A DNA stretch of 64,000 nt, from positions 1 to 64,000 of the forward strand of contig CACDPP010000004.1 in the NCBI GenBank assembly GCA_902554705.1, in the 5' to 3' direction. Below the pieces are notes generated by a model that saw only the letters and a program-made list of their open reading frames with translations, searched no databases and was not told the DNA's origin. Shown here in pieces: positions 5,952 to 64,000 of this stretch. Position 1 is the stretch's first letter; each line of letters opens with the position of its first letter. The DNA is from Paracoccaceae bacterium. GTDB taxonomy: Bacteria; Pseudomonadota; Alphaproteobacteria; Rhodobacterales; Rhodobacteraceae. A program made the translations under genes and the position numbers.

Positions 5952-5980
5952 GTAAATTAGCAATTAAGAAAGTTCAAACT

Positions 5981-7216: not shown

Positions 7217-7254
7217 TTTAATCTCCCTGTTCATTTTTATAGCGCACATCGTTT

Positions 7255-10160: not shown

Positions 10161-10163
10161 AGT

Positions 10164-11339: not shown

Positions 11340-11426
11340 AAGTCTTCCACTATTTTAAAACGTGGTGTAAGCACTGCCCGTCAGCTCAGTTTACTGACTA
11401 AATAGAAATTAAGAGGAGCCCACCCA

Positions 11427-12449
11427 ATGGGGTACAAAGTTGTAGTTGTTGGAGCGACGGGAAATGTGGGCCGCGAAATGCTAACCATTTTATCGGAACG
11501 TCAATTTCCAGTGGATGAAATAGCGGCTCTCGCAAGTAGACGATCTCTGGGTACTGAAGTAAGTTTTGGAGATCAAACAATTATTACCAAAGACCTAGAA
11601 ACATTTGATTTCGAAGGTTGGGACATAGCTCTCTTTGCCATAGGTTCTGATGCGACAAAAGCATTTGCTCCGAAAGCTGCAGCTAAAGGATGTATTGTTA
11701 TAGATAACAGCTCCCTATACAGGTACGATCCAAATGTGCCGTTGATTGTACCGGAGGTAAATGCCGAAGCAATAACCGAGTATTCGAAAAAGAATATTAT
11801 TGCCAACCCAAATTGCTCCACAGCACAAATGGTTGTCGCATTAAAGCCCCTTCACGATCGTGCCCGCATTAAGCGTGTTGTTGTCAGTACTTATCAATCT
11901 GTTTCCGGTGCTGGAAAAGAAGGTATGGACGAGCTCTGGGATCAAACAAAGTCTATATACAATCCTGTAACCGATGTACCTCCCACCAAATTTACGAAGC
12001 AAATTGCATTCAATGTTATCCCACATATCGATAAATTCTTGGATGACGGCAGCACAAAAGAAGAATGGAAAATGGTCGCTGAAACAAAAAAAATAATAGA
12101 TACTTCTATCAAAGTCACAGCAACATGTGTGAGGGTTCCAGTCTTTGTTGGCCATTCTGAAGCAATAAATATTGAATTTGAAGATTTTTTAGATGAGGAC
12201 GAAGCGCGCGACATTCTTCGCGAGGCTCCTGGCGTCATGGTGATCGATAAGCGTGATGATGGGGGATACGTGACGCCTATCGAATGTGCTGGAGACTACG
12301 CAACTTTTATTAGTCGGCTACGTCAAGATAGTACAATTGAAAATGGTTTAAACCTATGGTGTGTGTCAGATAATCTACGTAAAGGCGCCGCACTTAATGC
12401 TGTCCAGATAGCTGAGACACTTGGTCAAAGAGTTCTCAAAAAGGGTTAA
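11427..12449 (+). CDS. asd: Aspartate-semialdehyde dehydrogenase
   Basis: Catalyses NADPH-dependent reduction of aspartyl phosphate to aspartate semialdehyde, the branch point to lysine/diaminopimelate, threonine and methionine. 340 residues, the usual length. N-terminal GATGNVGREML (residues 9-19) binds NADP, and the catalytic Cys sits in NPNCSTAQM (about residue 132). A strong ribosome site (AGAGGAG) precedes ATG at 11427. The gene stands alone and is followed by a hairpin at 12519-12547. Confidence 0.95.
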   Translation: MGYKVVVVGATGNVGREMLTILSERQFPVDEIAALASRRSLGTEVSFGDQTIITKDLETFDFEGWDIALFAIGSDATKAFAPKAAAKGCIVIDNSSLYRYDPNVPLIVPEVNAEAITEYSKKNIIANPNCSTAQMVVALKPLHDRARIKRVVVSTYQSVSGAGKEGMDELWDQTKSIYNPVTDVPPTKFTKQIAFNVIPHIDKFLDDGSTKEEWKMVAETKKIIDTSIKVTATCVRVPVFVGHSEAINIEFEDFLDEDEARDILREAPGVMVIDKRDDGGYVTPIECAGDYATFISRLRQDSTIENGLNLWCVSDNLRKGAALNAVQIAETLGQRVLKKG

Positions 12450-12518
12450 TATTAAACTACCTTCTTGATATTCTTCATACTATTGCAGAGAGCTTATTTG
12501 GTAGGTGAATTAAAGAAG

Positions 12519-12547
12519 TACTAGCCATTGCAAAACAATGGCTAGTA
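12519..12547 (+). terminator. Intergenic hairpin after asd
   Basis: A perfect 12-bp stem (TACTAGCCATTG / CAATGGCTAGTA) with a CAAAA loop lies in the gap between asd and the aminopeptidase gene. No clear T-run follows, so it may be a weak terminator or an mRNA-stabilising hairpin. Confidence 0.5.
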
Positions 12548-12590
12548 TAAGACAATTTCATTAACGCTCGAAAAAATAAGGCAAAATAAA

Positions 12591-13967
12591 ATGAAATTTG
12601 CTGATACCAGAGATAAGGCAATACCAGCATACTGTGTTGAACAAGATAGAATTTTTGAAAAATCCAAATCCTTTGACGCAGTAACTAAAGACTGGATTAA
12701 CCAAAATAACTTTTCAGGCTCTTTCGGTCAGTCTGTTTTATGTCCGACCGAAAAAGGTGACGCGATTGCGCTTTTGGGCTTGGGCAATAAAAATTCAAGA
12801 AGGCGATCACGCTTTTCCTTAGCTGCTAATGCAAAATCGCTTCCAGCAGGAAGTTATGAAATTGTGAACCCTGAAGCAGTGGAAAATCTAGAAATTGAGG
12901 TGCTTGGGTGGCTCATAAATAACTATGTTTTTGACAAATATAAAAACAAAAAAGACAGCCAAGCCTATTTGGTTAAACCTAAAATAATTGATGCTAATCG
13001 CGTTTTGCAATTTGCTGAGGCGGAAGCGTTAGCCAGAAATCTTATAAACACACCCACTTCCGATATGGGCCCAGAAGATTTAGCATCTGCCACAAGAAAT
13101 TTTGCTAATAAATTCGGTGCTGATTATTCCGAAATTGTTGGAGAAAATTTAATAGCGAAAAATTTTCCACTCATCCACACTGTTGGACGTGCGTCTTCTC
13201 AAGAGCCAAGATTAATAGAAATTAAAAGTGGAAATGTAGGACCAAAAGTAACTTTGGTGGGTAAAGGGGTTTGTTTCGATACGGGCGGATTAAATATTAA
13301 GCCTGGCCGCTCAATGAGCCTAATGAAAAAAGATATGGGTGGAGCAGCTAATGTTTTAGCCCTTGCTTCCATGATCCTATCAACCAGTATGAATATCCAA
13401 TTACGGGTAATTATACCGGCAGTCGAAAATTCTATTTCCGAAAATTCATTTCGGCCAGGCGATATCCTAACTGCCAGAAATGGATCAACTGTTGAAATCA
13501 ATAATACAGACGCAGAAGGCCGCCTTGTGCTAGCTGATGCATTGTCTTTCGCAAGCGAGGATGACCCTGATCTAATAATATCAATGGCGACACTGACAGG
13601 CGCAGCGCGTGTTGCCGTTGGAGCAGATATTGCTCCGTTTTTTTCAGAAAGAAACGAAGTCAGTGATATATTAAAAGCTTCAGGTGCTCAGCAAAATGAT
13701 CCTGTTTGGCCTTTGCCGTTTTGGGACCCTTACGAAAAAATGATCGAGCCCGATACAGCTGATTTAGATAATTCGCCCAGCGGTGGTTATGGCGGAGCGA
13801 TTACGGCTGCATTATTTTTACGCCGCTTTGTTACAAAGCCAAACTCGTACATACACTTTGATATATATTCGTGGTCAGACACAAATAAACCAGGTCTGCC
13901 AAAAGGCGGAATAACTCAAGGGCCTAGAGCCATATTTGATGCACTTCCAAAAATCTTAGATATTTAA
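12591..13967 (+). CDS. M17 family leucyl aminopeptidase-like protein
   Basis: Cytosolic metallopeptidase that removes N-terminal residues from short peptides. The two-metal catalytic core is plain: GKGVCFDTGGLNIKPG (about 224-239), MKKDMGGAA (about 246-254) and NTDAEGRLVLADAL (about 304-317). At 458 residues it is a little shorter than classical PepA (about 500). The start ATG at 12591 is weakly supported by upstream purines. The NlpC/P60 gene begins 1 bp after its stop, so the two are a translational pair, suggesting joint peptide processing. Confidence 0.9.
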   Translation: MKFADTRDKAIPAYCVEQDRIFEKSKSFDAVTKDWINQNNFSGSFGQSVLCPTEKGDAIALLGLGNKNSRRRSRFSLAANAKSLPAGSYEIVNPEAVENLEIEVLGWLINNYVFDKYKNKKDSQAYLVKPKIIDANRVLQFAEAEALARNLINTPTSDMGPEDLASATRNFANKFGADYSEIVGENLIAKNFPLIHTVGRASSQEPRLIEIKSGNVGPKVTLVGKGVCFDTGGLNIKPGRSMSLMKKDMGGAANVLALASMILSTSMNIQLRVIIPAVENSISENSFRPGDILTARNGSTVEINNTDAEGRLVLADALSFASEDDPDLIISMATLTGAARVAVGADIAPFFSERNEVSDILKASGAQQNDPVWPLPFWDPYEKMIEPDTADLDNSPSGGYGGAITAALFLRRFVTKPNSYIHFDIYSWSDTNKPGLPKGGITQGPRAIFDALPKILDI

Positions 13968-13968
13968 A

Positions 13969-14808
13969 ATGGATCCCCGTCTGACACCTGCTAATGAGAT
14001 CGTTGCCTGCTCCTCACTAAGAGGTAAAATAAAACATTCAAATTTTATTGAAGGTAAGAATTATCAAATCAATGTGCCATTTGTAGACCTGCTTAGCACG
14101 CCAGATGGTAAGAGAAATAGACAGCTCATTTATGGTTCAAAAGTGAAATACTTTGGTGAAAACGGTGGTTGGGCATTTATCCAAAATATTTACGATAGTT
14201 ACGTGGGATACGTTCCTCAAAATTCAATTGTTTTAGAAACAGAGAAGACGCATATCGTAAAAGTTCCGCTTTCCCATGTTTTTCTTGAGCCAAACATTAA
14301 GTCCAGAAATATTGAAATACTGCCGTTAGCAGCAAAAGTTTCTGGGCAAATAGTTAAAAATGGTTTTTTGGAGACAGAGCTTGGCTGGATTTCACTTTCA
14401 CAATTAAAGCAAAAAACAGAATTATCTAAAGATCCCGTTGAAGTGTCCAAGCTGTTACAGCATGCGCCGTATTTATGGGGAGGCAATACATCTTTAGGTA
14501 TAGATTGTTCCGGTCTTATTCAGATTTCATTGTTGCTTTGCGGTGTAGACTGTCCAGGCGATAGCGACCAGCAAATGAATACTTTAGGTCATAACCTTGA
14601 TGTTGGTTCACCCAGAAAGAAAGGCGATATTCTTTTCTGGAAAGGGCACGTGGCGTGGGCCGTAAATGAAAGGCAAATTTTACATGCAAACGCTTATCAT
14701 ATGGCGACAGTAATAGAAGAAGCAAACGAGGCTATTGAAAGAATAAAAAAACAAGACAAGAATAGCGTAATTGCCCACAAAAGACTTAAAGGAGAATTAT
14801 ATGAGTGA
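13969..14808 (+). CDS. NlpC/P60 family peptidase with SH3-like domains, no signal peptide
   Basis: A 279-residue protein with two SH3b-like segments (about 20-90 and 95-150) followed by an NlpC/P60 cysteine peptidase domain. The catalytic Cys is in GIDCSGLIQ (about residue 179), the His in KGHVAWAV (about 226) and a further His in HANAYH. There is no signal peptide or membrane segment, so it probably acts in the cytosol. The closest known roles are YkfC-like enzymes that cut murein peptides. Placement directly behind an M17 aminopeptidase and overlapping the next gene by 8 bp fits murein-peptide recycling, which is inference. Confidence 0.85.
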   Translation: MDPRLTPANEIVACSSLRGKIKHSNFIEGKNYQINVPFVDLLSTPDGKRNRQLIYGSKVKYFGENGGWAFIQNIYDSYVGYVPQNSIVLETEKTHIVKVPLSHVFLEPNIKSRNIEILPLAAKVSGQIVKNGFLETELGWISLSQLKQKTELSKDPVEVSKLLQHAPYLWGGNTSLGIDCSGLIQISLLLCGVDCPGDSDQQMNTLGHNLDVGSPRKKGDILFWKGHVAWAVNERQILHANAYHMATVIEEANEAIERIKKQDKNSVIAHKRLKGELYE

Positions 14809-15751
14809 TCCATTTTTTAAACCAGTTTCAGGTTTTGATCTGCCTAGGTTTGCGGGTGTCCCTACTTTCATGCGGCTTCCACATGTTTCACTCGAGGCGG
14901 CAAAAATCAAAGATGTAGATATCGGTATCATCGGCGTTCCATGGGATAGTGGGACAACAAATAGACCAGGCCCCCGTCATGGCCCTCGTCAATTACGTGA
15001 CGCATCAACCATGATAAGGGCTCAGCATCCAGTATCAGGAATAAGGCCCTATGAGAAAATTAATTGTGCTGACCTTGGCGATGTTTCAATAAATCCTGCT
15101 GATATCGAAGACAGTATGAATAGGATTACGTCCTTCTATAAAAAGGTAATTGAAAAGGGAATTAAGCCACTGACTGCTGGTGGCGACCATTTAACTTCAC
15201 TACCAGTTTTGAGAGCGATTGCGGATAAAGGTCCGCTGGGAATGATACATTTTGATAGTCACACAGATCTTTTCCACAGTTACTTTGATGGAACAATGTT
15301 TACTCATGGAACACCATTTCGTCGTGCAGTTGAGGAAAACCTTCTTGATCCAAAGAGAGTGATCCAAATTGGGATACGAGGAACTCAATATGATCGCGAA
15401 GATTTAGACTTCGCAGACTCAGTAGGAATTAGGGTCGTCAAAATTGAGGAGTTTTTTGATCGAGGAATTGAAGACGTAATGGCTGAGGCTAGAGAAATAG
15501 TTGGTGAAAGGGAAACTTATATTTCTTATGACATCGATTTTATTGACCCAGCATTTGCACCAGGAACAGGCACTCCAGAAGTTGGTGGTCCTAATAGTTA
15601 TGAGGCCCTAAGGGTTGTCCGTGAACTCAATGGAGTTAAAATAGTCGGTGCCGATATGGTTGAAGTATCTCCTCCCTTTGACCTTAGTAGCAATACAGCT
15701 TTTTTAGGTGTTTCAGTAATGTTTGAGTTACTTTGCCAGATGGTAGATTAA
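14801..15751 (+). CDS. speB: Agmatinase/ureohydrolase family protein
   Basis: Manganese ureohydrolase of 316 residues. Agmatinases release urea from agmatine to give putrescine; relatives act on guanidinobutyrate or other guanidino compounds. Metal ligands are visible in GGDHLTSLP (about 136-144), HFDSHTDLF (about 159-167, Ser in place of the common Ala of DAHxD) and SYDIDFIDPAFAPGTGTPE (about 242-260). The ATG at 14801 has AAGGAGA ahead of it and overlaps the end of the NlpC gene by 8 bp; an upstream in-frame start at 14771 would overlap further and lacks such a site. Family is secure; agmatine itself is the likeliest but unproven substrate. Confidence 0.85.
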   Translation: MSDPFFKPVSGFDLPRFAGVPTFMRLPHVSLEAAKIKDVDIGIIGVPWDSGTTNRPGPRHGPRQLRDASTMIRAQHPVSGIRPYEKINCADLGDVSINPADIEDSMNRITSFYKKVIEKGIKPLTAGGDHLTSLPVLRAIADKGPLGMIHFDSHTDLFHSYFDGTMFTHGTPFRRAVEENLLDPKRVIQIGIRGTQYDREDLDFADSVGIRVVKIEEFFDRGIEDVMAEAREIVGERETYISYDIDFIDPAFAPGTGTPEVGGPNSYEALRVVRELNGVKIVGADMVEVSPPFDLSSNTAFLGVSVMFELLCQMVD

Positions 15752-15807
15752 GCAAAAATTATTTGGTTGACCTATAGGCCTAAAGATTTTAGACGATTTC
15801 TGTTAAT

Positions 15808-15884
15808 GGCGGAGTAGCTCAGGTGGTTAGAGCAGCGGAATCATAATCCGCGTGTCGGGGGTTCAAGTCCCTCCTCCGCTACCA
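15808..15884 (+). tRNA. tRNA-Met(CAT)
   Basis: A 77-nt cloverleaf with encoded CCA. Acceptor arms GGCGGAG and CTCCGCT pair with a G-U at the end. The D arm is TAGCTCAGGTGGTTAGAGCA. The anticodon stem GCGGA/TCCGC frames the loop ATCATAA with CAT at 15842-15844, and the T arm contains GGTTCAAGTCC. The form resembles elongator Met; Ile2 (lysidine-modified CAT) cannot be ruled out by eye. Its 3' half is repeated at 21702-21746. Confidence 0.93.
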
Positions 15885-15949
15885 AAATAACTTCAATGAA
15901 ATAGACCAAATTGATCGTTTCTATTCAGGACGTTTTTAGAGGTAAATAA

Positions 15950-16657
15950 ATGAGTTCGCAAACGAATTGGGGTTGCGTGACTTGGAATATTTGTTATCTG
16001 TACCGCATATTTACCCCCGATGAAGTAAGAAAAAACAATATGTATGATTCAAGCACAATAAAAATACATGAAGGAGTCTCATGTCAGGATGATATTAAGT
16101 TAGACGAGTTTTGTATCTTAGGTTACCCGTCAAAAAATGCTTCAGGAAATTTGGTGATTGGCTTTAATGCGCATATCAGGTCTAGTGCGGTTGTCTACGC
16201 CGGTACAAAAATTGGTGATAATTTCCATTTGGGTCATGGATCTCTTGTTCGGGAAAATTGCAAGATCTGTTCGAACGTAAGTATAGGCTCACACTCTATA
16301 TTAGAGCACCAAGTAGTAATAGGAGATAATGTTAGATTGCATTCGAGAGTTTATATTCCTGAATTCAGCATCGTCGAAGACAGTGTCTGGATTGGCCCTG
16401 GATGCGTGCTAACAAATGCCCCTTACCCCAACTCGCCAGATGCTAAGCTTAACCTAAAGGGAGTGCATTTGTTAGAGGGAGCAATTGTGGGCGCAGGCGC
16501 TATCATCCTTCCTGGCGTAAGAATTGGCAGGAAAGCTCTAATTGGCGCTGGCTCTGTAGTAACTGATGATGTGGAGGATGGTGCCGTGGTTGTCGGTTCA
16601 CCCGCGAAAAAGACAAAACACATAGCTGAAATTCAAGCATACAGCAACTCAAAATGA
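15950..16657 (+). CDS. Hexapeptide-repeat N-acetyltransferase (WbpD-like)
   Basis: Left-handed beta-helix acyltransferase of 235 residues with many imperfect hexapeptide turns (for example IGDNFH, IGDNVR, VGAGAI, IGAGSV) and the C-terminal VVVGSPAKK found in sugar O- or N-acetyltransferases. Its neighbours resemble WbpE and WbpB, so it may acetylate the 3-amino group of a UDP-2-acetamido-3-amino-glucuronate. Two starts are possible: ATG 15950, with AGAGG at a good distance, adds about 30 residues that are not helix-like; ATG 16040 begins at the helix but has a weak ribosome site. It overlaps the next gene by 4 bp. Confidence 0.82.
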   Translation: MSSQTNWGCVTWNICYLYRIFTPDEVRKNNMYDSSTIKIHEGVSCQDDIKLDEFCILGYPSKNASGNLVIGFNAHIRSSAVVYAGTKIGDNFHLGHGSLVRENCKICSNVSIGSHSILEHQVVIGDNVRLHSRVYIPEFSIVEDSVWIGPGCVLTNAPYPNSPDAKLNLKGVHLLEGAIVGAGAIILPGVRIGRKALIGAGSVVTDDVEDGAVVVGSPAKKTKHIAEIQAYSNSK

Positions 16658-17778
16658 TTAACTCTTCAATCAAAATCCCTCTTGTCGACTTAAAGGCTCA
16701 ATACCAGTCGATACGGCAGGAAGTTAATGAGTCTATTGAAAGAGTTTTGGAAAACACCTCTTTTATTATGGGAGAAGAAGTAAAAAAATTTGAAGCCTCG
16801 TTTGCCAATTACATTAATACCGATGAAAGCCTTGGAGTTGCATCTGGAACGGCGGCTTTGCTTCTGGCTCTCAAGGCATGCGATGTAGGTCCTAGTGATG
16901 AAGTGATTACAACAGCGCACACATTTTTTGCTACTGCAGAACCAATTTCAATACTAGGTGCGACTCCAATCTTCGTGGACATTGACCCTTTGACCTACAA
17001 CATCAATCCGGATCTAATCGAAGCTAAAATCACAGAGCGAACCAAGGCAATTATTCCTGTACACCTATACGGGCAACCCGCTGATATGCGTAAGATCATG
17101 AAAATTGCAAATAAGCACAATCTATATGTGATTGAAGATGTAGCGCAGGGACACGGTGCGGAAATTGATGGCCAACGATGCGGCAGTATTGGCCATCTAT
17201 CCTGCTTCAGCTTTTATCCAGGCAAAAACTTAGGCGCCTATGGTGATGGCGGTGGTGTGTCTGGAACCAACACCGAGCTTCTAGCCACTGTTCGTAAGTT
17301 ACGGGACCATGGTCGGGTTTCAAAATATGAGCATGATATTATTGGGCTCGGTGAACGACTGGATGGTCTTCAAGCCGCAATTCTAGATGTTAAATTGAAG
17401 TATCTGGAAGAGTGGACTGAGGCTCGTCGTGCGGCGGCCGATAAGTATGTAGAACGCCTCACGGGTGTTGATGGAGTATTACTGCCGCACGTGACGCAGA
17501 ATGTCCGGCATGTTTATCATCTGTTTGTCATTCAGGTTGAAAACAGAGACGCTACTCTGAAATACTTAAATGAAAACGCGATAGGGGCGGGTATTCACTA
17601 TCCTATTCCGCTGCACAAACAGCCAGCCTATGCAAAATTAGGATACAATAAACAGTCTTTGCCGCACACTGAGACTGCAGCTGATAAAATTGTAAGCCTG
17701 CCGATGTTCCCAGAAATCACGGATCAGCAAATAGACCGAGTTGTCCAAACTTTAAAAGAGGCACTTGATAAATGCTAA
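16654..17778 (+). CDS. DegT/DnrJ/EryC1 sugar aminotransferase (WbpE-like)
   Basis: PLP-dependent aminotransferase acting on keto-sugar nucleotides, 374 residues. The N-terminal IPLVDLKAQYQSI is typical of the WbpE/WlbC branch. EDVAQGHGAEIDG (about 164-176) contacts PLP and the Schiff-base Lys is in FSFYPGKNLGAYGDGG (about 186-201). It overlaps its upstream and downstream neighbours by 4 and 7 bp, so the three genes are tightly coupled. The likely step is amino transfer to the C3 ketone of a UDP-2-acetamido-glucuronate derivative, inferred from the gene trio. Confidence 0.88.
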   Translation: MINSSIKIPLVDLKAQYQSIRQEVNESIERVLENTSFIMGEEVKKFEASFANYINTDESLGVASGTAALLLALKACDVGPSDEVITTAHTFFATAEPISILGATPIFVDIDPLTYNINPDLIEAKITERTKAIIPVHLYGQPADMRKIMKIANKHNLYVIEDVAQGHGAEIDGQRCGSIGHLSCFSFYPGKNLGAYGDGGGVSGTNTELLATVRKLRDHGRVSKYEHDIIGLGERLDGLQAAILDVKLKYLEEWTEARRAAADKYVERLTGVDGVLLPHVTQNVRHVYHLFVIQVENRDATLKYLNENAIGAGIHYPIPLHKQPAYAKLGYNKQSLPHTETAADKIVSLPMFPEITDQQIDRVVQTLKEALDKC

Positions 17779-48665: not shown

Positions 48666-49736
48666 ATGGCTCATTCACTTTTAACGACAGTAATCGGATC
48701 ATTTCCTAAACCAGCTTATCTCCCAATTGAAGACTGGTTTGATGCTGCCAGAAATGAGGGCGCGATGAATTCTGAGCGCGTCACAGAAAACTTCACTAAA
48801 TATCAAGAGAATACAAAAGAAAGTGACGAACATCTTTTCATCAAAGCCGCTGAAGAAGTGATCAGTTTACAAATTAACTCTGGAATAGATATACCCACAG
48901 ATGGTGAAGTGCGTCGCGAAAATTATGTGCACTATCATTGTAGATACCTAAGTGGTTTTGATTTTAAAAATCTTGAGCGTCGGGTCTTCAGGGATGGTGC
49001 ATATGACTCACACCTGCCGGCTATTAGAAAAAAAATAGAGCACACCAATGTGGGCTATGCGGCCCTTGATTACGTTAGTAGTCAAAAAGTTTCTCCAGTT
49101 CCCATAAAATTTACCCTACCGGGACCACTTACTATTATGGATACAACGGCCGACTGTTATTACGATGACCGCCCAAAACTCAATAGAGACCTGGCCGATA
49201 CAATCAACAAAGAAATACTAAGGCTAGTGGACGCAGGTTGCCGATATATTCAGGTTGATGAGCCTCTGTTTGCGCGGCAAGTTAATGACGCATCATCCTT
49301 TGGTATGGAAGGTATTGAGAGATGTTTTCACGGTGTACCAAGCGATGTTAAAAAAATTATGCATATGTGTTGTGGTTATCCAGATCATTTGGATGACAAA
49401 GATTACAAGAAGGCTGACCCTGGTAGTTACCATCAGTTAGCTAGCGAGGTTGATGCGTTAAATATCGATGAGGTATCAATTGAGGACGCTCATTGCCAAA
49501 ACAATCTGGATTTGTTGGAAAAGTTTGAAAAAAAATCTGTTGTCTTTGGATCGGTTGCTATCGCTTCAAGCCGTATTGAAACAGAGGATGAAATCATAAA
49601 CAGAATTAATTCAGCGCTTAATCATATTGATAGAAATAGACTAGTCATTGCACCCGATTGTGGCCTCGGATTACTCACTCCAGATCTAGCAGTGGCAAAA
49701 TTACGTGTGATGTGCTCTGCGGTTAAAAAAGTTTAA
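48666..49736 (+). CDS. Core MetE-like (cobalamin-independent methionine synthase family) protein
   Basis: 356-residue protein matching only the C-terminal catalytic half of MetE. The opening TTVIGSFPKP, FTLPGPLTI (about 147-155), DEPLFAR (about 198-204) and the zinc ligands His/Cys in HMCCGYPDH (about 236-244) with Cys in PDCGLG (about 335-340) are visible. Family members transfer a methyl or alkyl group to or from a thiol. Some short ones take methyl from corrinoid proteins, others handle epoxyalkane-coenzyme M. The role here is undetermined. It diverges from the PotD-like gene. Confidence 0.82.
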   Translation: MAHSLLTTVIGSFPKPAYLPIEDWFDAARNEGAMNSERVTENFTKYQENTKESDEHLFIKAAEEVISLQINSGIDIPTDGEVRRENYVHYHCRYLSGFDFKNLERRVFRDGAYDSHLPAIRKKIEHTNVGYAALDYVSSQKVSPVPIKFTLPGPLTIMDTTADCYYDDRPKLNRDLADTINKEILRLVDAGCRYIQVDEPLFARQVNDASSFGMEGIERCFHGVPSDVKKIMHMCCGYPDHLDDKDYKKADPGSYHQLASEVDALNIDEVSIEDAHCQNNLDLLEKFEKKSVVFGSVAIASSRIETEDEIINRINSALNHIDRNRLVIAPDCGLGLLTPDLAVAKLRVMCSAVKKV

Positions 49737-55204: not shown

Positions 55205-56935
55205 ATGGCTAAGAAAAAAGATGAGTTAAGATCCGCACGTTGGTTTGCCCCAGATGACTTAAGATCCATGGGGCATAGATCACGTGCCATGCAGATGGGG
55301 CTAGAACAAGAGGATTGGGACGGAAAACCTATAATTGCCATTATTAATACTTGGTCGGATTTATCTCCATGCCATCATCATTTGAGAGACCGGGCCGAGT
55401 TTGTTAAAAAAGGTGTTTACCAGGCTGGCGGGATGCCTGTGGAAATGCCAGTTCATTCCTTCTCTGAGCAATTTCTTAAGCCTACATCAATGCTATATCG
55501 AAACATGGGCGCTTTAGAGGTTGAAGAGACCCTGCGCGCTCACCCCATTGATGGAGTAGTCCTCATGGGAGGCTGTGACAAATCAACACCTGCCCTAATC
55601 ATGGGCGCAACAAGCATGGGCTTACCTTTTATCTACATGCCTGCGGGAGCAATGTTGCGAGGCAACTATGCTGGTGAAAAGCTAGGGTCTGGTACTGATG
55701 TATGGAAATACTGGGATGAACGAAGAGCTGGCAATATTTCAAAAGAGCAATGGGAAGGGGTACAGGGTGGAATTGCTCGAAGCTATGGCACATGTATGAC
55801 AATGGGAACCGCTTCTACCATGATGAGCATTGCCGACGGTTGGGGCCTAACATTACCCGGGGCTTCTTCAATACCAGCGCCTGACGCAGGCCATAAACGT
55901 ATGGCAGCGGAATGTGGTCGTCGAATTGTTGATATGGTCTGGGAAGACCTCACTCCTGATCAAATAATAAACGAAGCAAGCACAAGAAACGCAGTCACCG
56001 TAGCAATGGCAACAGGTTGCTCAACTAATGCGATAATTCACCTTATCGCAATGGCCCGCCGTGCTGGCGTTAATCTGACGTTAGATCAGCTCGACGAGAT
56101 TGGCAGAACGACACCTGTCATCGCTAATATCAGACCATCAGGAAAAAACTATTTGATGGAAGACTTTTTCTACGCAGGAGGTTTGCGTGCCCTTATGGTT
56201 GAACTGGGCAACAAGCTCGACCTGAATGTCAAAACAGTTACAGGGCAAACACTTAAGGAATGTATTAGCGGCTCCAGGAACTATAATAGTGATGTGATCC
56301 GAACTCTTAAAAATCCAGTTTATCATGAGGGATCATTAGCTGTTTTGAAAGGTAATCTCGCACCTGATGGCGCCGTCATAAAACCAGCGGCTATGGACCC
56401 CAAATTTCAAAAACATAACGGACCAGCAATAGTTGCTGATAGCTATGATGAATTAAAAGAAATTATAAATGACGAAGATTATCCCATAACAGCAGATCAT
56501 ATTTTAGTTTTAAGAAATGCCGGCCCAAAAGGCGGGCCAGGTATGCCAGAGTGGGGCATGATCCCTATGCCCAAGGCATTACTCAAGCAAGGACATAGAG
56601 ATATGATAAGGCTGTCAGATGCGCGCATGTCAGGAACTTCCTATGGTGCATGCATTTTACATGTAGCACCTGAAGCTTTTATTGGTGGGCCCCTAGCATT
56701 AATTAAAACTGGAGATATTATTCAGGTAGATATCCCCAACCGTAAACTTGACGTTGATATTTCCAAAAGTGAAATGAAGAAGCGTAAGGAGGATTGGGTT
56801 GCACCTAAACCTCGATACGAACGTGGGTACGGGTATATATATTCAAAACATATTGAACAGGCTGACAAGGGTTGCGATTTCGACTTTCTAAGTACTGACT
56901 TTGGGGCTGCAGTTGAAGAACCAGAAATAAACTAG
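55205..56935 (+). CDS. IlvD/Edd-family sugar-acid dehydratase (L-arabinonate dehydratase-like)
   Basis: Iron-sulfur dehydratase of 576 residues. Cluster-binding cysteines are seen in NTWSDLSPCHHH (about 48-59), MGGCDKSTPA (about 118-127) and YGTCMTMGTASTM (about 194-206). The opening KKKDELRSARWFAPDDLRS (quoted in part) and the RMGxRS-like GHRSRAMQMG follow the L-arabinonate/galactonate dehydratase branch, not IlvD. Such enzymes dehydrate aldonic acids to 2-keto-3-deoxy acids. Partner genes for arabinose oxidation are not in the window. It converges on the cupin gene with a 4-bp overlap. Confidence 0.85.
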   Translation: MAKKKDELRSARWFAPDDLRSMGHRSRAMQMGLEQEDWDGKPIIAIINTWSDLSPCHHHLRDRAEFVKKGVYQAGGMPVEMPVHSFSEQFLKPTSMLYRNMGALEVEETLRAHPIDGVVLMGGCDKSTPALIMGATSMGLPFIYMPAGAMLRGNYAGEKLGSGTDVWKYWDERRAGNISKEQWEGVQGGIARSYGTCMTMGTASTMMSIADGWGLTLPGASSIPAPDAGHKRMAAECGRRIVDMVWEDLTPDQIINEASTRNAVTVAMATGCSTNAIIHLIAMARRAGVNLTLDQLDEIGRTTPVIANIRPSGKNYLMEDFFYAGGLRALMVELGNKLDLNVKTVTGQTLKECISGSRNYNSDVIRTLKNPVYHEGSLAVLKGNLAPDGAVIKPAAMDPKFQKHNGPAIVADSYDELKEIINDEDYPITADHILVLRNAGPKGGPGMPEWGMIPMPKALLKQGHRDMIRLSDARMSGTSYGACILHVAPEAFIGGPLALIKTGDIIQVDIPNRKLDVDISKSEMKKRKEDWVAPKPRYERGYGYIYSKHIEQADKGCDFDFLSTDFGAAVEEPEIN

Positions 56936-57306
56936 TTACTGTTTGTTTCTAAATTTTCATAAGCTTCTGGTTTAAACCTGGGAGAACAGTGACAATAAAA
57001 CTCTAGGTCTTCAGATTTACTCAAATTGGTAATTCTTTGAGGGGTATTAGCGGGGATAATAACACTGTCGCCAACGGAAACCTCAATTTCTTTTTCCCCC
57101 ACAAGAACCAAACCTGTACCCTTTCGGATAATATAAATTTCTTTCGTATTTCTAAGGCAATGCAATTGTGTTGTTATGGAAGGTTTAACTCGCGCGATAG
57201 CCAACGAAAACTCCTCAACCTTCTCGCTATTTAGGCACTCAGTTATAAAACATCTCTCGTCAGTCCAAAATTCTGGGGAGCTGATATCATCTCTAGGTAA
57301 CTTCAC
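56932..57306 (-). CDS. Cupin domain protein
   Basis: 124-residue single cupin barrel. The motif VKPSITTQLHCLRNTKEIYI (about 41-60) has the first His/Glu metal set, somewhat degenerate, and PANTPQRITNLS (about 84-95) lacks the usual second His. This suggests altered or absent metal binding. It begins at GTG with AAGGAA upstream, and is the last gene of the minus-strand run from the SDR gene 24 bp away. Its role is not known. Confidence 0.7.
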   Translation of the reverse strand: MKLPRDDISSPEFWTDERCFITECLNSEKVEEFSLAIARVKPSITTQLHCLRNTKEIYIIRKGTGLVLVGEKEIEVSVGDSVIIPANTPQRITNLSKSEDLEFYCHCSPRFKPEAYENLETNSN

Positions 57307-57330: not shown

Positions 57331-58086
57331 CTACCAGCTGGGCACACATTCCATACCGCCATCTACAATCAGGTTTGCACCCGTAATAAAACTTGCAGCG
57401 TCACTAACCAAAAACAAGGTAGCATTTGCAATATCTTCACCAGTTCCTAATCGTTTTAGAGGGACATTTTCTAACCAGTTTTGGACACCTTGGGGCCAGT
57501 CTTTGTCTAAATTTTGTCTATCAGTCAATCCGGGACAAATAGAATTTACACGGATATTTTTAGATCCAAGCTCAAGAGCAGATGCTTTAGTAAAATTAAT
57601 AAGACCTGCTTTTGAAGCTGCGTAGTGACTATGGTTTATGGCGGGCGTGAGTCCCTCTATCGAACAGATATTTACAATCGATCCACCATTTTCAGAATAT
57701 TCAGCAAAATATCGTGTCATCATAATCGGCACCTGTAAATTAGTTTCTAACATTTGACTAATCTCAGAAGGCCCCAATTCCGCTAATGCACATACAGGTT
57801 GAATGGCTGCATTGTTTACCAGAATATCGATTGGTTTAGAATCTTTATTTATGGATTCAAACAGTGAGCAGTAGGAATTTGGATCTGAGAAATCCCCAAA
57901 CACCGTCGATACTTCTTCGTTTGCAAGTTTTGCTAATTTTATTTTAGCTGCTTCTACTTCAGAACTATCGTTCCTAGCGTGCAGAATAATTTCTGCCCCA
58001 GCTTGCACTAGTCTTTTTGCGATAGCAAATCCAATACCACTTTTTGAGCCCGTAACCAGAGCCCGCTTTCCTATCAGCTCAGTCAA
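57331..58086 (-). CDS. Short-chain dehydrogenase/reductase
   Basis: 251-residue classical SDR. NAD(P)-binding TGSKSGIGFAIAKRL (about 12-26), NNAAI (about 89-93), catalytic Ser in CSIEG and YAASKAGLI with Tyr/Lys (about 157-165) and IVDGGMECV at the end are intact. It starts at TTG (58086) with AGGAG about 10 nt ahead. The PNP gene ends 46 bp upstream of it on the same strand, so it may share that transcript and oxidise or reduce a sugar or small aldehyde product. Confidence 0.82.
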   Translation of the reverse strand: MTELIGKRALVTGSKSGIGFAIAKRLVQAGAEIILHARNDSSEVEAAKIKLAKLANEEVSTVFGDFSDPNSYCSLFESINKDSKPIDILVNNAAIQPVCALAELGPSEISQMLETNLQVPIMMTRYFAEYSENGGSIVNICSIEGLTPAINHSHYAASKAGLINFTKASALELGSKNIRVNSICPGLTDRQNLDKDWPQGVQNWLENVPLKRLGTGEDIANATLFLVSDAASFITGANLIVDGGMECVPSW

Positions 58087-58131: not shown

Positions 58132-58962
58132 TTAAGTCCATGCCTGTAAAAGTCCTGGTAAAATAGATTTAATCTTTTTTCCCGCTACACTGGCATACTC
58201 TAACACCTCTTCGATTGTATCGGGCTGCTGTTCTGGTCCACCATCAGCCTTGTTGGTAATTGCTGATAGACCAACAATCTCAAAGCCAGCCTGTTTTGCT
58301 GCAATCACTTCCATTATTGTAGACATCCCAACCGCATCTGCACCACTCTCCTTTAGAAAACGTCGCTCCGCCGAAGTCTCCAAAGAAGGGCCTGTTATAC
58401 CAGCATAAATTCCTTTGCTCAGTTTAATACCAGCATTTTTAAAGCAATTAGATACTATCCCCCGTATCTTCTTATCATAGACGTCGGACATATCAGGAAA
58501 GCGTAATCCTAATTCATCGTCATGTGGGCCAATAAGTGGATTGTGGCCAGTAAAATTTATATGGTCAGTAAGCATCATAACACTTCCAGGTTCAAAACTT
58601 GTATTCAAAGCACCAGCAGCGTTAGTTACAACCATCTTTCTTACACCCAGGTTTTTAGCAACCCTGATTGGAAATGCTATCTCGGTAGCTTTCCACCCCT
58701 CATATAGATGCAACCTGCCCTGCATAACCAGTACGGGCCTTCCATTGAAACTCCCCGAAATTAAATTTCCTGCATGAGACGGCGCAGTAGAAAAAGGAAA
58801 TTCTGGGATCTCTTTATAAGAGATTTCAGCTTCTTTTGAAATTTCATTCGTTACATCACCCAAACCAGATCCTAAAATTAGTAGAAGTTCTGGACTCTGA
58901 CTTATTCGTCGACCAATATATTCAGCTGCAAGTTCTATTTTTTTTACAAAATTGTTTTCCAT
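58132..58962 (-). CDS. Trimeric purine nucleoside phosphorylase, likely 5'-methylthio/5'-deoxyinosine type
   Basis: 276-residue PNP-I trimer-type enzyme. Phosphate-binding LGSGLGD (about 31-37), AGNLISG and QGRLHLYEGW segments, the base-binding ITGPSLETSAE and AITNKADGG with Asn237 (6-oxopurine recognition, as in inosine/guanosine PNPs) are all present. The family His that contacts the ribose 5'-hydroxyl, in a TH(D/E)EV motif near the C-terminus, is Ile250 here (QPDTIEEVLEYA). That change removes the 5'-OH contact and would suit a 5'-deoxy or 5'-methylthio nucleoside. It follows the deaminase-like gene by 13 bp. Substrate is inference; the residues are seen directly. Confidence 0.87.
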   Translation of the reverse strand: MENNFVKKIELAAEYIGRRISQSPELLLILGSGLGDVTNEISKEAEISYKEIPEFPFSTAPSHAGNLISGSFNGRPVLVMQGRLHLYEGWKATEIAFPIRVAKNLGVRKMVVTNAAGALNTSFEPGSVMMLTDHINFTGHNPLIGPHDDELGLRFPDMSDVYDKKIRGIVSNCFKNAGIKLSKGIYAGITGPSLETSAERRFLKESGADAVGMSTIMEVIAAKQAGFEIVGLSAITNKADGGPEQQPDTIEEVLEYASVAGKKIKSILPGLLQAWT

Positions 58963-58975: not shown

Positions 58976-60292
58976 CTACTCGAGACTAGCTTTGATAGAT
59001 GGAGCTAATTCACGAACCTTTGCGTGGATATTTTCGATATCAAGACCCCCAATTTTTTTATTTTCTACAACATGTTTTCCAGAAACAAATACATCTGTAA
59101 CGTCCGAACGTCCTGCACCAAAAACAAGATGCGTAATTGGATCAAAAAGAGGAATAGAATGAGAATTGTTTATATCTACCAAAATAAAATCTGCATTTTT
59201 ACCTACTTCTAGACTGCCAAGTGAATCGGTGCGCCCTAGAGCCCTCGCACCACTAATGGTTGCCATGTGAAGTACCTGCTCAGCATTTAAAGCATCAGCT
59301 TCCATATTTAAGCCTTTTGCTAAACCGCAGGTTAATCGCATTGCCAACCACATATCTAAGTCATTTCCGCTGATTGCTCCATCTGTACCAATTGTAAGAT
59401 TTATTCCTGCTCTATACATTTCTTTAACTGGAGCGATGCCTGACCCTAACTTAAGGTTTGACATTGGGTTAAGAACAACATTTGTCTTACTCTGGGCTAA
59501 GAGTGAAATTTCTGTTTCGTCTAGATGTACACAATGAGCAAGTACTGAAGTTTCACCCAACAATTTATACTTATCTAAATGCCGTATGACCGAGTTACCA
59601 TAACGTGTCTTTATATCATTCTGCTCGGCTTGAGTTTCTGCAGCATGAGTACAAAATAATATCCCATATTGATCTGCAATGCTTTTGGCCTCACTCAAAT
59701 TTTGTGGGGAAACAGTGTAACTACCATGCGGCAAAATAGCGGGAATTACACTGTCATCGGATGAGTGGCTTTTATAAAAGTTTTGGGCCTCTGAGACATA
59801 ATTTTCATGGGAGCGTCCACCTATTCCTGGCAAATCAAAAAAGATACCACCAGTGGATATTCGCATGCCTAAATCTTTTGCAGCTCTAACAGTTTCGTCT
59901 GGATACCAAAACATATCCATGACAGTTGTAGATCCGCTCAAAAGATTTTCCGCCAAACCTAATACAGAACCAAGGTAAGTAGTTTCAGGAGTAAGTATGG
60001 CTTTTTCAGCTATCCAAACACGTCCTAACCATTCTTCAAGAGGAAGGTTCTCAACCAGCCCTCTGAACAAACTATCGGCAGCATGACAGTGCATGTTTAT
60101 TAAACCCGGCATCACTATATTGCCATTTGCTCCAATTATTTTTTTTGCAGTAAGTTTTTTTGCAGCTGATGTGTTAGAGCGTTCTAAAGCTGTGATCTTG
60201 CCGTTATTAACAGCCATGACACCATTTTCGATAATAGAATGATTGCTGTCACACGTGACAATTAAGGCGTCTGTAATTAAAATATCATCCAT
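58976..60292 (-). CDS. mtaD: TRZ/ATZ-family amidohydrolase, 5'-methylthioadenosine/SAH deaminase-like
   Basis: 438-residue metal-dependent amidohydrolase. Metal His residues are in MPGLINMHCHAADSLFRGL near residue 70, HAAETQAEQ near 220, and Asp in GTDGAISGNDLDM near 315. The GLINxHxHA, NLPLEEWL and NLKLGSG segments fit the MTA/SAH deaminase (MtaD) group, which turns the 6-amino group of MTA, SAH or 5'-deoxyadenosine into a ketone. The neighbouring PNP is of the 6-oxopurine kind and would accept that product. ATG 60292 has AGAGGA 7 nt upstream; ATG 60298 is too close to it. Confidence 0.83.
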   Translation of the reverse strand: MDDILITDALIVTCDSNHSIIENGVMAVNNGKITALERSNTSAAKKLTAKKIIGANGNIVMPGLINMHCHAADSLFRGLVENLPLEEWLGRVWIAEKAILTPETTYLGSVLGLAENLLSGSTTVMDMFWYPDETVRAAKDLGMRISTGGIFFDLPGIGGRSHENYVSEAQNFYKSHSSDDSVIPAILPHGSYTVSPQNLSEAKSIADQYGILFCTHAAETQAEQNDIKTRYGNSVIRHLDKYKLLGETSVLAHCVHLDETEISLLAQSKTNVVLNPMSNLKLGSGIAPVKEMYRAGINLTIGTDGAISGNDLDMWLAMRLTCGLAKGLNMEADALNAEQVLHMATISGARALGRTDSLGSLEVGKNADFILVDINNSHSIPLFDPITHLVFGAGRSDVTDVFVSGKHVVENKKIGGLDIENIHAKVRELAPSIKASLE

Positions 60293-60446
60293 TATCATAT
60301 CCTCTCATACCTAGTAGATCTTTAATCCACCTAATTAATAAAAAAGAGCTATTTGGTGTAAAAAATTCTCATCTTTTATAGAGCATGTTACTCTAACTTC
60401 AGTTTCGTTATGGCTCTTTCGCAGCATAGAGTTTTATTATCTCTGA

Positions 60447-62480
60447 TTAACGCAAGGACGCTTCAATATTACCACCATCTACCGTCATTACATGTCCAGT
60501 TGTTCGCTCGGCTTGGGCGAGTGAAACAAAAGCTTCTGCTACATGACTTGCTTTGACTTCTGCATTTAGTAAGTTACCAGCCATATACTTATCTTCAGAA
60601 ATACCTCGGGCATTTGCACGTTCAGCAATAAAGTTATCTGTGAGCAAACCTGACCTTATTCTGTCAGCATTAACTCCATTGACGCGAATTCCGTCACCCC
60701 CTAACTCCAACGCAAGCTGTCGCATCATAAAAAAAGTTGTTGCCTTTGGCATCCCGTATGCACCAAAATTTTTACCAGGGTTTACAGCTTGTTTCGATAT
60801 ATTAAATAAGATCTGGCCACCTCTGGATTGCAATTTTATCAGGTTTGCTGCTTCTTTTGCAAACTCGTAATGAGAAAAGAAGTTCAACTCAAAAGCTTTC
60901 CTAACGGAAGAGCTAGTCATATCTATCATTGAGCCCGACTGCGCTGATCCTGCGTTAGAGACTAGTATGTCAAGACCTCCGTATGTCTCTATAACAGATG
61001 TAATTGCCTCTTTTGCTGCCTTTGGATCTGTTACATCCAGCGCTTTTCCAAAATGGCCTTTGCCAAGTTTTTCTAGAGCGGCGCCCAAATTTTCTTGGTT
61101 TAGATCAATCAAAAAACATTGTGCGCCTAATGACGCAAATGCATTTGCCGTTTCAAACCCAATTGTTCCTGATCCTCCAGTTACCATTACCACTTTTCCT
61201 TGAAACGCCGGCGCTTTCCCTTTGCCAAGTTTGGCTTGTTCTAATGACCAATATTCACAATCAAATAAATCTTTTTCGGAAATAGGATAAAAACCACCTG
61301 CATCTTCACCAACTGACCTCACACGAGCATTCTGAACAACAAGATCACCCGCTATACTGGCTGCTTTAAAATTTGAGCCAAGACCTAAAAGACCCACACC
61401 TTCCATCCATATTGTTTTAGGATCTGGTGGAAGAATAGTTTTAGGTTGGGCCGCTTTGGCAGCCTGGCGCTCAAACATTGCCTTATATTCGTTCTCATAG
61501 TCCTTAAGCGCGCCTTTAATCGCAGAACTTCCCTGCTCCCATATTGACTTTCGTAAAACTAGTGGGCGACCCTTAATCCTTATAACATGATCTGGAGATG
61601 CAGTTCCTCGCTCAGATAAACTGTCCAAATCAGCTCTCTTTAGAAACTCCATTTCTTCTGGACCATTTCTTACGTCGATAATTGGCATAGCAGCATTAGG
61701 CCCAATCATTTCAGCTATCAGACCCCTTATCACTGGTAAGACTTCATGAGATTTATGGCTGGATTTGACATTAAGAGCAGTCGGCTTTTTCAAGTTAAAA
61801 TAGTCTGCAACAGTTTGTGTATGTGATATTATTTGATTGTAGCTTTCTTCAGCTGTCTCACCAAAAGCAAAATGTCCATGACCCAACAACATTAAACCTT
61901 CGACGCTAGGATCTTGATCATAAACTTCAGCCGCTTTTTTTGCCAGAGCGAAGCCAGGCATTATATATGGAACTACTCCCAACCTTGAGCCAAAAATTTC
62001 TTTACACACTTCTTCAGCGTTCGGAAGGTTTGCAAGGATTAAAAATGGAGTAGCATGGGTATGATCGACAAATTTATGCGGAAGAAAAGCATGTAATAAC
62101 GTTTCGACCGAAGGATTTGGTGCTGAACTGTCAAGCAAATTAGCCCTCTGAACATTTACCATATCTTCATCAGATAGCTTATCTAGATTTCGTAGCTCTC
62201 TCAACGGGTCCAACCAAAGACCAGGTAGTCCAGGTGCTTGTATCGTATCTAAGTCCCAGCCTGATCCTTTAACATGTATTACTTGTTTAGTATTTCCAAA
62301 AAGATCTTTTCGTTCAACTTTAATAGAGGTATTACCACCACCATGCATAACAAGATCAGGATTTTGTCCAATTATTCTTGATGTGTAAACTCGAAGCGCG
62401 AGCTCTTGATCAGCAACATCTTTGCCTACTTGTTCAACATAAGATTTAGCTTCACTAGGTTTATAATTATTTTTGATCAT
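60447..62480 (-). CDS. Fused class II aldolase / short-chain dehydrogenase (RhaD-like/SDR)
   Basis: 677-residue bifunctional protein. The N-terminal part is a class II aldolase/adducin domain with HGGGNTS (46-52), a zinc HTH pair in FVDHTHATP (His140, His142) and GHGHFAFG (about 200-207). The C-terminal part (about 425-677) is an SDR with TGGSGTIG (434-441), Ser562, Tyr575 and Lys579. Known members include rhamnulose-1-phosphate aldolase/lactaldehyde dehydrogenase fusions. Here it is 4 bp after mtnA and mtnK and no rhamnose gene is in sight. A methylthioribulose-1-phosphate or deoxyribulose-1-phosphate aldolase, with the aldehyde passed to the SDR part, is the better guess. A 154-bp gap separates it from the deaminase gene. 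Confidence 0.85.
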   Translation of the reverse strand: MIKNNYKPSEAKSYVEQVGKDVADQELALRVYTSRIIGQNPDLVMHGGGNTSIKVERKDLFGNTKQVIHVKGSGWDLDTIQAPGLPGLWLDPLRELRNLDKLSDEDMVNVQRANLLDSSAPNPSVETLLHAFLPHKFVDHTHATPFLILANLPNAEEVCKEIFGSRLGVVPYIMPGFALAKKAAEVYDQDPSVEGLMLLGHGHFAFGETAEESYNQIISHTQTVADYFNLKKPTALNVKSSHKSHEVLPVIRGLIAEMIGPNAAMPIIDVRNGPEEMEFLKRADLDSLSERGTASPDHVIRIKGRPLVLRKSIWEQGSSAIKGALKDYENEYKAMFERQAAKAAQPKTILPPDPKTIWMEGVGLLGLGSNFKAASIAGDLVVQNARVRSVGEDAGGFYPISEKDLFDCEYWSLEQAKLGKGKAPAFQGKVVMVTGGSGTIGFETANAFASLGAQCFLIDLNQENLGAALEKLGKGHFGKALDVTDPKAAKEAITSVIETYGGLDILVSNAGSAQSGSMIDMTSSSVRKAFELNFFSHYEFAKEAANLIKLQSRGGQILFNISKQAVNPGKNFGAYGMPKATTFFMMRQLALELGGDGIRVNGVNADRIRSGLLTDNFIAERANARGISEDKYMAGNLLNAEVKASHVAEAFVSLAQAERTTGHVMTVDGGNIEASLR

Positions 62481-62484: not shown

Positions 62485-63582
62485 TCAAAATCCTGCTAAA
62501 TCTGGGAACATTTTGGCTAAAGCTTTTTCAGAAGCATCAGAAACACCTCGCTCAGTTATTAATCCTGTAACCAATCTGTTTGGGGTAACGTCAAAAGCTG
62601 GATTTCCTCCAGAAACACCCTCTGAAGTAACCCTTATTTCTTCAATACTATTTTTTTCGTGGTGCCCAAAAATATGGGTTACCTCCCGAGCGGCTCGCTC
62701 TTCAATTGGGATATCTGCTAAGCCATCACTTATTGTCCAATCTATTGTGGGTGAAGGCAAAGCTACATAAAATGGAACATTATTATCACGAGCTGCTAGA
62801 GCCTTGAGATACGTACCAATTTTGTTACAAACATCACCTTGGGCAGTAGTTCGATCAGTGCCCACAATAACCATGTCAACAAGGCCCTTTTGCATAAGGT
62901 GCCCACCAGCGTTATCTGTGATGTAAGTATTACTAATGCCATGGCTCTCAAGCTCCCAGGCAGTCATTGCGCCTTGATTTCTTGGCCTTGTTTCATCAAC
63001 CCAAACATGAATAGGAATGCCTGCCTCGTGCGCATGATACATTGGTGAAGTAGCTGTGCCCCAGTCTACTGTTGCCGGCCATCCCGCATTGCAATGTGTT
63101 AACATCCTAACGGGTTCCCCTGCCGGTTTATTAGATGCTATTTTTTTTACAATCTCTAATCCGTGCTCACCTATCTTTTTATTTATACCAACATCTTCTT
63201 CTGCCACCAGATGGGCAAGCTTCAATGCTTTTGAAGCACGTTCTTCCTGAGACACTTGACCCAGTGCTCTTAGAAGTCGATCCAGAGCCCACTTAAGGTT
63301 GATTGCTGTTGGACGAGTCTCTATCAAAGTATCATATGTGTTTTTCAAACCGGAATCTGAAGCGTCGCTATTTAGAGATATTGCTACACCATAGGCAGCA
63401 GTAGCACCTATGAGAGGTGCGCCCCTTACCCACATATCGCGAATTGCTACAGCAAATTCATCTAAATTTGTCAGAGCGACTATTCTAAAATCATGAGGTA
63501 GCCATCTTTGATCTATAATTTTTACCTGACAATCCTTATGATCATACCAGATTGATCGATAGTGAGTTCCTTGAACCTTCAT
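62485..63582 (-). CDS. mtnA: S-methyl-5-thioribose-1-phosphate isomerase
   Basis: Turns methylthioribose-1-phosphate (or 5-deoxyribose-1-phosphate) into the ribulose form. 365 residues, normal length. [13 protein letters not shown] (about 53-65), the catalytic Cys164 in LTHCNAGW and Asp243 in [13 protein letters not shown], and the C-terminal [12 protein letters not shown] are all present. It overlaps mtnK by 4 bp (ATGA) and is followed at 4 bp by the aldolase/SDR gene, a strong sign of one pathway. Confidence 0.94.
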
Positions 63583-64000
63583 AGGTAATTCTCCGAATTG
63601 AACTTTTTTGCCAAGCTAGTAAGCTCACTAGCATTTTTTATCGATTTATTATTTAAGATTAACTCGCGTCCCATCATTAAGTTTCTAGCTTCGAGCTGGG
63701 ACCTTTTCTTAGTATCATTGATCTCCTCAAAATCCGCATTGTGTGCAAGTGACAAGACACGCCTATGCATTTCAATACCACATACAGCAACAGCATCTTG
63801 CCATATGTATTCAAGCATCTCATTAAGCGCAAAGTCTGAGCTATCTCCCTGATCTTCAAACATTGAACTTGGGAACAAAATGCCTGTTCTTTCAAAATTC
63901 CATAGTTTTTTAAACTCCTGCTGAAATGTCTCAAAAGTCTCTTCGATAACTTTCAAAATCCAATTTTGATATTCTGACAATTTTTCGCTATCGCGATGCC
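63579..64000 (-). CDS. mtnK: S-methyl-5-thioribose kinase, C-terminal part (continues past window edge)
   Basis: The open frame runs to the window end with no start of its own (the TTG at 63980 lies inside it). The last ~140 residues include [20 protein letters not shown] and [12 protein letters not shown], which match the end of MtnK-family kinases that phosphorylate free methylthioribose or 5-deoxyribose. The catalytic part lies outside the window. The overlap with mtnA fixes its role as the kinase entry to the same route. Confidence 0.85.

Follow-up and report, generated by a model that had tools for sequence, protein, structure and literature searches.

The window analyzed here, a stretch of 64,000 nucleotides, carries a minus-strand gene cluster in the order mtnK, mtnA, a class II aldolase fused to a short-chain dehydrogenase (SDR), an MtaD-like deaminase, a purine nucleoside phosphorylase (PNP), a separate SDR and a cupin. 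The first two genes overlap by 4 bp, 4 bp separate mtnA from the fusion, and a gap of 148 bp lies between the fusion and the MtaD-like gene. Further downstream, the spacings are 13 bp (MtaD-like to PNP, as an earlier sequence-only reading of this DNA had also counted), 45 bp (PNP to SDR) and 24 bp (SDR to cupin). The 5-methylthioribose kinase gene mtnK is represented in the window by its C-terminal part (63579-64000), and this fragment, the part covered by the NCBIfam scan, scores 106.5 bits against TIGR01767 (cut-off 275); the full protein has 425 residues and its gene extends past the window to about position 64856 of contig C4. The 5-methylthioribose-1-phosphate isomerase gene mtnA (62485-63582) reaches 405.6 bits against TIGR00512 (cut-off 279). 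The aldolase/SDR fusion (60447-62480, 677 residues), assigned by family matches, lies above the cut-off of the generic bifunctional model PRK08324.1-6 (811, cut-off 639) and below that of the rhamnulose model TIGR02632 (423, cut-off 568). A rhamnose operon, considered in view of the fusion's resemblance to RhaD/ADH, was rejected on the latter score and on the lack of a rhamnose kinase or isomerase among the ten proteins scanned.

The deaminase (58976-60298) is an amidohydrolase of the methylthioadenosine (MTA)/5'-deoxyadenosine/SAH deaminase type. Specifically, its best PDB match is 4f0r, a 5-methylthioadenosine/SAH deaminase (E 3.8e-77), while its best NCBIfam scores are 387.6 against PRK09045 (cut-off 540) and 316.5 against PRK07228 (cut-off 522), and no curated cut-off is reached among the 25 families shown of 45 matched. 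Family matches likewise define the downstream SDR (57331-58086), which is conserved beside the MtaD-PNP pair, and the small cupin (56932-57306), which is conserved there in the close relatives L004-L019. A methylsulfurylase role for the cupin, as in the MTA-isoprenoid shunt, was considered and rejected, since its PDB matches are weak (best E 0.00018, to plu4264) and a methylsulfurylase is not named among its 23 PDB rows. Convergent with the cluster, and overlapping the end of the cupin gene by 4 bp, is an IlvD/Edd protein of the L-arabinonate dehydratase type (55205-56935, plus strand; PRK13016, above cut-off). On the other side, a ribose/arabinose-type ABC ATPase, a permease and a Peripla_BP_4 binding protein diverge from mtnK (L167 4968-8595). 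The gene order is conserved in close kin; in L006 and L008, MtaD lies about 5 kb from the aldolase fusion. In L011, a DeoR/LsrR-type regulator gene (5667-6632, below cut-offs) lies between the same two genes and is a candidate pathway regulator.

The PNP itself is encoded by an intact open reading frame of 276 residues (58132-58962, minus strand). It scores 332.7 against PRK08202 (cut-off 218) and 307.4 against TIGR01700, "purine nucleoside phosphorylase I, inosine and guanosine-specific" (cut-off 293.35), both above the NCBIfam cut-offs. By contrast, it reaches 71.1 against the 5'-methylthioinosine (MTI) phosphorylase model PRK09136 (cut-off 223) and 83.4 against the MTAP model TIGR01694 (cut-off 274.85); these scores, far under the cut-offs, rule out membership of the known MTIP or MTAP families. 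An AlphaFold2 model built from 26 sequences has a pLDDT of 93.8 and a pTM of 0.92, and its best structural matches are PNP-I enzymes, led by 4m1e (VIA Z 43.7, rmsd 1.0, 273 aligned residues) and followed by 6tk9 (Z 42.4) and bovine 1b8o (Z 40.7), with Foldseek TMq values of 0.94-0.97 for the top four rows. By family scores and predicted fold, then, the product of this frame is a trimeric-type PNP (PNP-I).

Its active site departs from the PNP-I pattern at the sugar end of the pocket. The sequence-only reading had claimed that the histidine contacting the ribose 5'-OH is replaced by isoleucine and that the asparagine binding 6-oxopurines is retained, and both statements agree with a phmmer alignment to bovine PNP (1a9q). 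Ile250, encoded by ATC at 58213-58215, stands opposite His257 of human and bovine PNP, so that the histidine expected to contact the 5'-OH is missing from the window protein, and Asn237 (58252-58254) stands opposite Asn243, the residue for 6-oxopurine binding. The same alignment, counted from its printed form, reveals a second change in the pocket that the earlier reading had not mentioned, namely Leu194 (58381-58383) in place of Phe200, next to Glu195 opposite Glu201; the coordinates of the Leu194 and Asn237 codons, which like that of Ile250 lie on the minus strand, were counted from the start of the frame. The remaining ligands match those of the bovine enzyme. Specifically, the phosphate ligands S33, R84, H86 and S220 correspond to S32, R83, H85 and S214, the purine ligands E201 and N243 to E195 and N237, and Y88, F159 and M219 to Y87, F155 and M213 of the window PNP. 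The C-terminal helix of the AlphaFold2 model begins with Ile250, and in human PNP His257 likewise starts the helix 257-284 (PMC4308819). In the human enzyme, Phe200 and His257 share a single pocket with Phe159' from the adjacent subunit (PMC10226123). The His257 site is well known, because the PDB contains human PNP structures with H257G, H257F, H257D and H257W, the last with other changes.

The hydrophobic replacement fits the residues found in MTA phosphorylases, as the earlier reading had stated. The MTAP of genome G534 has Val at the Ile250 position in a profile alignment, and five MTAP-family structures with printed alignments have Ala there, read by eye. In a ranking of all 276 positions by the sharpness of the difference between the variant clade described below and His-type PNPs, the top is a tie of positions 250, 247, 248, 197 and 200, where the place of position 250 is by construction because the comparison rows were chosen as His-type; position 194 ranks 23rd. 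The difference is zero at H64, R84, H86, Y88, F159, Y192, E201, M219 and S220. Judged from these alignments, the combination of a hydrophobic residue at 250 throughout the clade with otherwise unchanged ligands is more than chance.

The relation between residue 257 and the neighbouring genes was followed across 146 PNP-I rows, which comprise the query, 80 loci from a GTDB contig scan, 61 loci from family, class and order searches (best 30 matches each, so that further His-type matches lie outside the set) and four added rows, namely the canonical paralogues L155, L156 and L241, plus L166; L001 and L084, which are copies of the window itself, were excluded. Residue 257 is His in 106 rows, Ile in 26, Leu in 4, Asn in 4, Ala in 2, and Gln, Tyr and Val in one each, with one row lacking the position. 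His257 is thus the commonest residue and is not invariant (106/145 rows), so that PNP-I membership of the window protein stands and only the claim about its specificity changes. A distance of 1.4 kb or less separates 28 of the 146 PNPs from an MtaD homologue (above 60 bits), and none of these 28 has His257. By residue, this neighbour accompanies 24 of the 31 PNPs with Ile, Leu or Val, all four with Asn, none of the 106 with His and none of the remaining five. Two of the Asn rows, L046 and L047, show Gly in another alignment and His in neither. As a control, ADA-type deaminases, searched with two query proteins, lie within 1.4 kb of three His-type PNPs and one Val-type PNP, too few to compare. 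Gene places in GC-rich loci were taken from tblastn or genome-search coordinates. MtnA proximity is not comparable between the 146 rows, because the loci from genome searches have flanks of about 1.5 kb.

Loss of the histidine is not confined to this context. Eight His-less PNPs have neither MtaD nor MtnA nearby (L025, L028-L030, L033, L034, L115 and L119), four of them Bacteroidota-type proteins with Leu200, Ile or Leu257 and Asp243. These four (L028, L029, L030 and L034), beside which no mtn or MtaD gene was found, are possibly 6-aminopurine 5'-deoxynucleoside phosphorylases. Besides the MtaD-linked Ile/Leu/Val group, some other PNPs deviate from His at position 257, with Ala, Gln, Tyr, Asn or Gly, or Ile or Leu paired with Asp243, and Thermus PNP 6tk9 has Glu. 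Loss of His257 alone was rejected as a specificity marker.

In a quick LG+G4 tree that excludes columns 200, 243 and 257 and comes with long-branch warnings, 27 rows form the main variant clade, a single starred group with an SH-aLRT of 99 that is set apart from the canonical Rhodobacteraceae PNPs. Position 257 is hydrophobic in all 27 (Ile 23, Leu 3, Val 1), and position 200 is Leu in 25 and Phe in 2. The variant looks separately acquired and not a local duplicate, because it is set apart in the tree and because variant and canonical PNPs occur together in G130, G111 and G601. It is also rare, being strongly matched in 4 of the 149 family genomes (G000, G130, G111 and G069) and, in an order sample of 196 genomes, in G534 and G601 besides G000. 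Three clade members lack an MtaD neighbour: L024, which is at a contig edge, L026, a long row whose placement in the tree is unsure, and L144. The last carries Val257 and lies beside an ADA-type deaminase, an SDR and a cupin; its ADA-type neighbour could mean a plain inosine substrate. At the gammaproteobacterial locus L026, a phosphoribosyltransferase-mtnA pair is divergent from the Ile257 PNP (6190-8801).

Two further MtaD-linked lineages lack the histidine, namely L088/L145 (from G002 and G617) and the Bacteroidales loci L046/L047. In G002, the locus L151 (G002:C4:10000-28000) holds at 8500-17035 a PNP with Asn257, MtaD and MtnA, followed by transketolase/DXS-like halves and a RuBisCO-like gene. 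All three of these last genes are below curated cut-offs, the RuBisCO-like one matching MtnW models, and the cluster may feed an MTA-isoprenoid-like salvage by way of deamination. L046 (6704-8816) and L047 each hold an amidohydrolase gene paired with that of a PNP without His257. Fisher tests give 2.5e-21 for the MtaD linkage and 8.7e-8 and 0.004 for MtnA, values that take no account of kinship or sampling and serve as description only. When independent pairs are drawn from starred branches, loss of His accompanies MtaD linkage in an average of 1.6 of 4 pairs, with 0 against, which is not significant because the independent changes are too few; for Ile, Leu or Val alone, the averages are 0.0 with and 0.2 against MtaD linkage, which gives no support. 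In a family scan of L237, L238, L242, L243, L230 and L236, L243 and L236 matched no family at the threshold used and L230 matched none above cut-off.

The isomerase that would take up the product of such a phosphorylase is frequent in the same genomes. Of 29 variant-PNP genomes, 25 have a match to MtnA (23 of them above cut-off) and four have none, compared to 48 of the 149 genomes of the family sample, which itself includes five variant-PNP genomes. For the main clade alone, the counts are 23/27 versus 43/144, and among family genomes at least 90% complete they are 5/5 versus 40/127, where two of the five matches are below cut-off (G069, a contig-edge fragment, and G130, at 171 bits). The aldolase fusion adjoins MtnA at 14 of 25 loci, and none lies within about 1.4 kb at the other 11. 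RuBisCO-like matches occur about 10 kb or less from MtnA in three variant-PNP genomes (G111:C50, G601:C5 and G1054:C32).

Further information comes from the phosphorylases encoded elsewhere in the lineage, surveyed in the window genome (1.85 Mb, 69% complete) and its seven nearest relatives (G1035-G1041; the completeness figure is for the window genome only). The window genome has three PNP_UDP_1 proteins, which are the variant PNP, a DeoD-type PNP and an AMP nucleosidase. Across the eight genomes, the 18 PNP_UDP_1 matches comprise eight variant PNPs, four DeoD proteins (all scanned; from the window genome and three of the seven close kin) and six AMP-nucleosidase-sized proteins, one of which was scanned and five of which were assigned by open-frame length and profile range. 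No MTAP or MTAN is found among these matches, with the window genome at 69% completeness, and the deaminase and variant PNP are therefore the sole visible route from MTA or 5'-deoxyadenosine to MtnA. Ordinary nucleosides are covered in the genomes where DeoD was found. RuBisCO-like proteins were not found in seven of the eight genomes, with one match in G1039, and no ARD (MtnD) above cut-off occurs in the 29 variant-PNP genomes, with one weak match in G002; the usual methionine salvage is thus unlikely here. Outside this lineage, G111 and G534 also encode a true MTAP (PRK08931, above cut-off), so that these two have a second route besides the variant PNP.

The available data are compatible with a model in which the window PNP is a PNP-I member that has switched from inosine and guanosine to MTI and/or 5'-deoxyinosine. 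This predicted function, which the sequence-only reading had proposed, is backed by the gene context, the absence of MTAP and MTAN, the link between MtaD and loss of His257, and the change of Phe200 to Leu, and we consider it probable. MTA and 5'-deoxyadenosine, made inside the cell or imported, would be deaminated by the MtaD-like enzyme. With phosphate, the PNP would cleave the product to hypoxanthine and 5-methylthioribose-1-phosphate or 5-deoxyribose-1-phosphate. Ile250 and Leu194, replacing His and Phe, may remove the contact to the 5'-OH and render the pocket hydrophobic around the 5' end of the sugar; the choice of a 6-oxopurine would be preserved by Asn237 and Glu195. MtnA would then isomerize the sugar phosphate, to which MtnK, judged by its family, could add free 5-methylthioribose or 5-deoxyribose brought in through the divergent ABC transporter. 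Cleavage by the fusion's aldolase domain would yield DHAP and 2-(methylthio)acetaldehyde or acetaldehyde, an aldehyde that the dehydrogenase domain may handle. As such, the cluster would constitute a deaminating entry to a pathway like the DHAP shunt.

The PNP might instead be a broad or ordinary enzyme that still uses inosine and guanosine well, perhaps along with MTI, and has lost the histidine with little effect. Such tolerance has precedents, as other PNP-I proteins lack His without any mtn context (those with Ala, Gln and Tyr, and the Glu of Thermus 6tk9), Plasmodium PfPNP accepts both inosine and MTI in one enzyme (PMC3885546), and simulations of human PNP show that the bond between a bound inhibitor's 5'-OH and His257 is not persistent (PMC4308819). 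We nevertheless regard this explanation as unlikely, because an ordinary PNP, DeoD, is already encoded in the window genome and three of seven kin, because all 27 clade rows keep a hydrophobic residue in place of the histidine and 25 of them carry a further substitution in that pocket, and because the variant is linked to MtaD and MtnA. A different doubt concerns the substrate, which could be some other 5'-modified or altered nucleoside whose sugar is then oxidized by the adjoining SDR and cupin, the mtn genes being mere neighbours in some species. MtaD and the SDR are indeed the most widely kept neighbours, both within 1.4 kb in 23 of 27 clade rows, and of the 23 main-clade genomes with MtnA, 12 encode it at a distance from the PNP. 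In those 12 genomes, however, mtnA is still present, and in seven it stands beside mtnK, which leaves this alternative quite improbable and the switch to MTI and/or 5'-deoxyinosine as the preferred reading.

Deamination followed by phosphorolysis is already known chemistry, established in Plasmodium, Pseudomonas and Methanocaldococcus with phosphorylases of other subfamilies. MTIP belongs to the MTAP-like family, PfPNP to the other, hexameric PNP family, and Methanocaldococcus jannaschii MtiP to another phosphorylase subfamily. The window PNP shares family, fold and the phosphate, base and most ribose ligands with the human, bovine and bacterial trimeric PNPs, from which it differs by Ile for His257, Leu for Phe200 and its mtn gene neighbours; human PNP does not use MTI (PMC3885546). 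Pseudomonas aeruginosa MTA deaminase and MTIP carry out the same chemistry as that proposed here (PMC6302742), whereas the window protein is far below the MTIP and MTAP cut-offs. Plasmodium likewise feeds a PNP with MTI activity from a deaminase, converting MTA via MTI to hypoxanthine, but the deaminase there is ADA and PfPNP has dual specificity (PMC3885546). M. jannaschii combines a 5'-deoxyadenosine deaminase with MtiP, which acts on MTI and 5'-deoxyinosine (PMC6302742), yet that system is archaeal.

The DHAP shunt (MtnK-MtnA-Ald2 or DrdK-DrdI-DrdA) similarly clusters a kinase, an isomerase and a class II aldolase, in some known clusters with a sugar transporter nearby, as here (PMC10986504; PMC6079011). 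At the window locus, mtnK and mtnA are clustered and an Aldolase_II domain is present, fused to an SDR. The entries described for the shunt are a nucleosidase with a kinase, or MtnP (PMC10986504; PMC6079011); neither Pfs/MtnN nor MtnP has a counterpart among the PNP_UDP_1 matches of the eight genomes, and the window operon differs in having a deaminase and a PNP as its entry and an aldolase fused to an SDR. Judged by titles and abstract starts, none of the papers listed concerns a bacterial trimeric PNP that acts on MTI, and prime spelling may let some escape such a search. Relative to the literature examined, the new elements are thus the predicted role of a trimeric PNP in the second step, and a putative cluster resembling the DHAP shunt whose entry is deaminating and whose aldolase is fused to an SDR.

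A broader proposal, to which we give about an even chance, is that a clade of trimeric PNPs was recruited separately from the MTIP and Plasmodium enzymes and, together with MtaD, starts a deaminating DHAP shunt by which small-genome marine Rhodobacteraceae would take up and consume MTA, 5'-deoxyadenosine or the sugars of either. His257 would have been lost in at least three MtaD-linked lineages, so that the pair of residue and neighbour would predict 5'-deoxynucleoside specificity. The nearest kin bear AG-/AH-type Rhodobacteraceae isolate names, which we take to be those of ocean single-cell genomes. MTA and 5'-deoxyadenosine are universal waste products of SAM, and Prochlorococcus excretes MTA under phosphate limitation (PMC11698098). 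If the proposal is true, an extra lineage of phosphorylases acting on deaminated MTA would open a further route for carbon, and perhaps sulfur, in these bacteria. It would also mean that "inosine/guanosine-specific" annotations need correcting, given that the window PNP lies above the TIGR01700 cut-off, and it would offer a natural test of the roles of His257 and Phe200. Elsewhere in the window, an open frame at 48666-49736 (plus strand) resembles by eye the C-terminal (core) domain of MetE and could bear on methylthio or methyl recycling.
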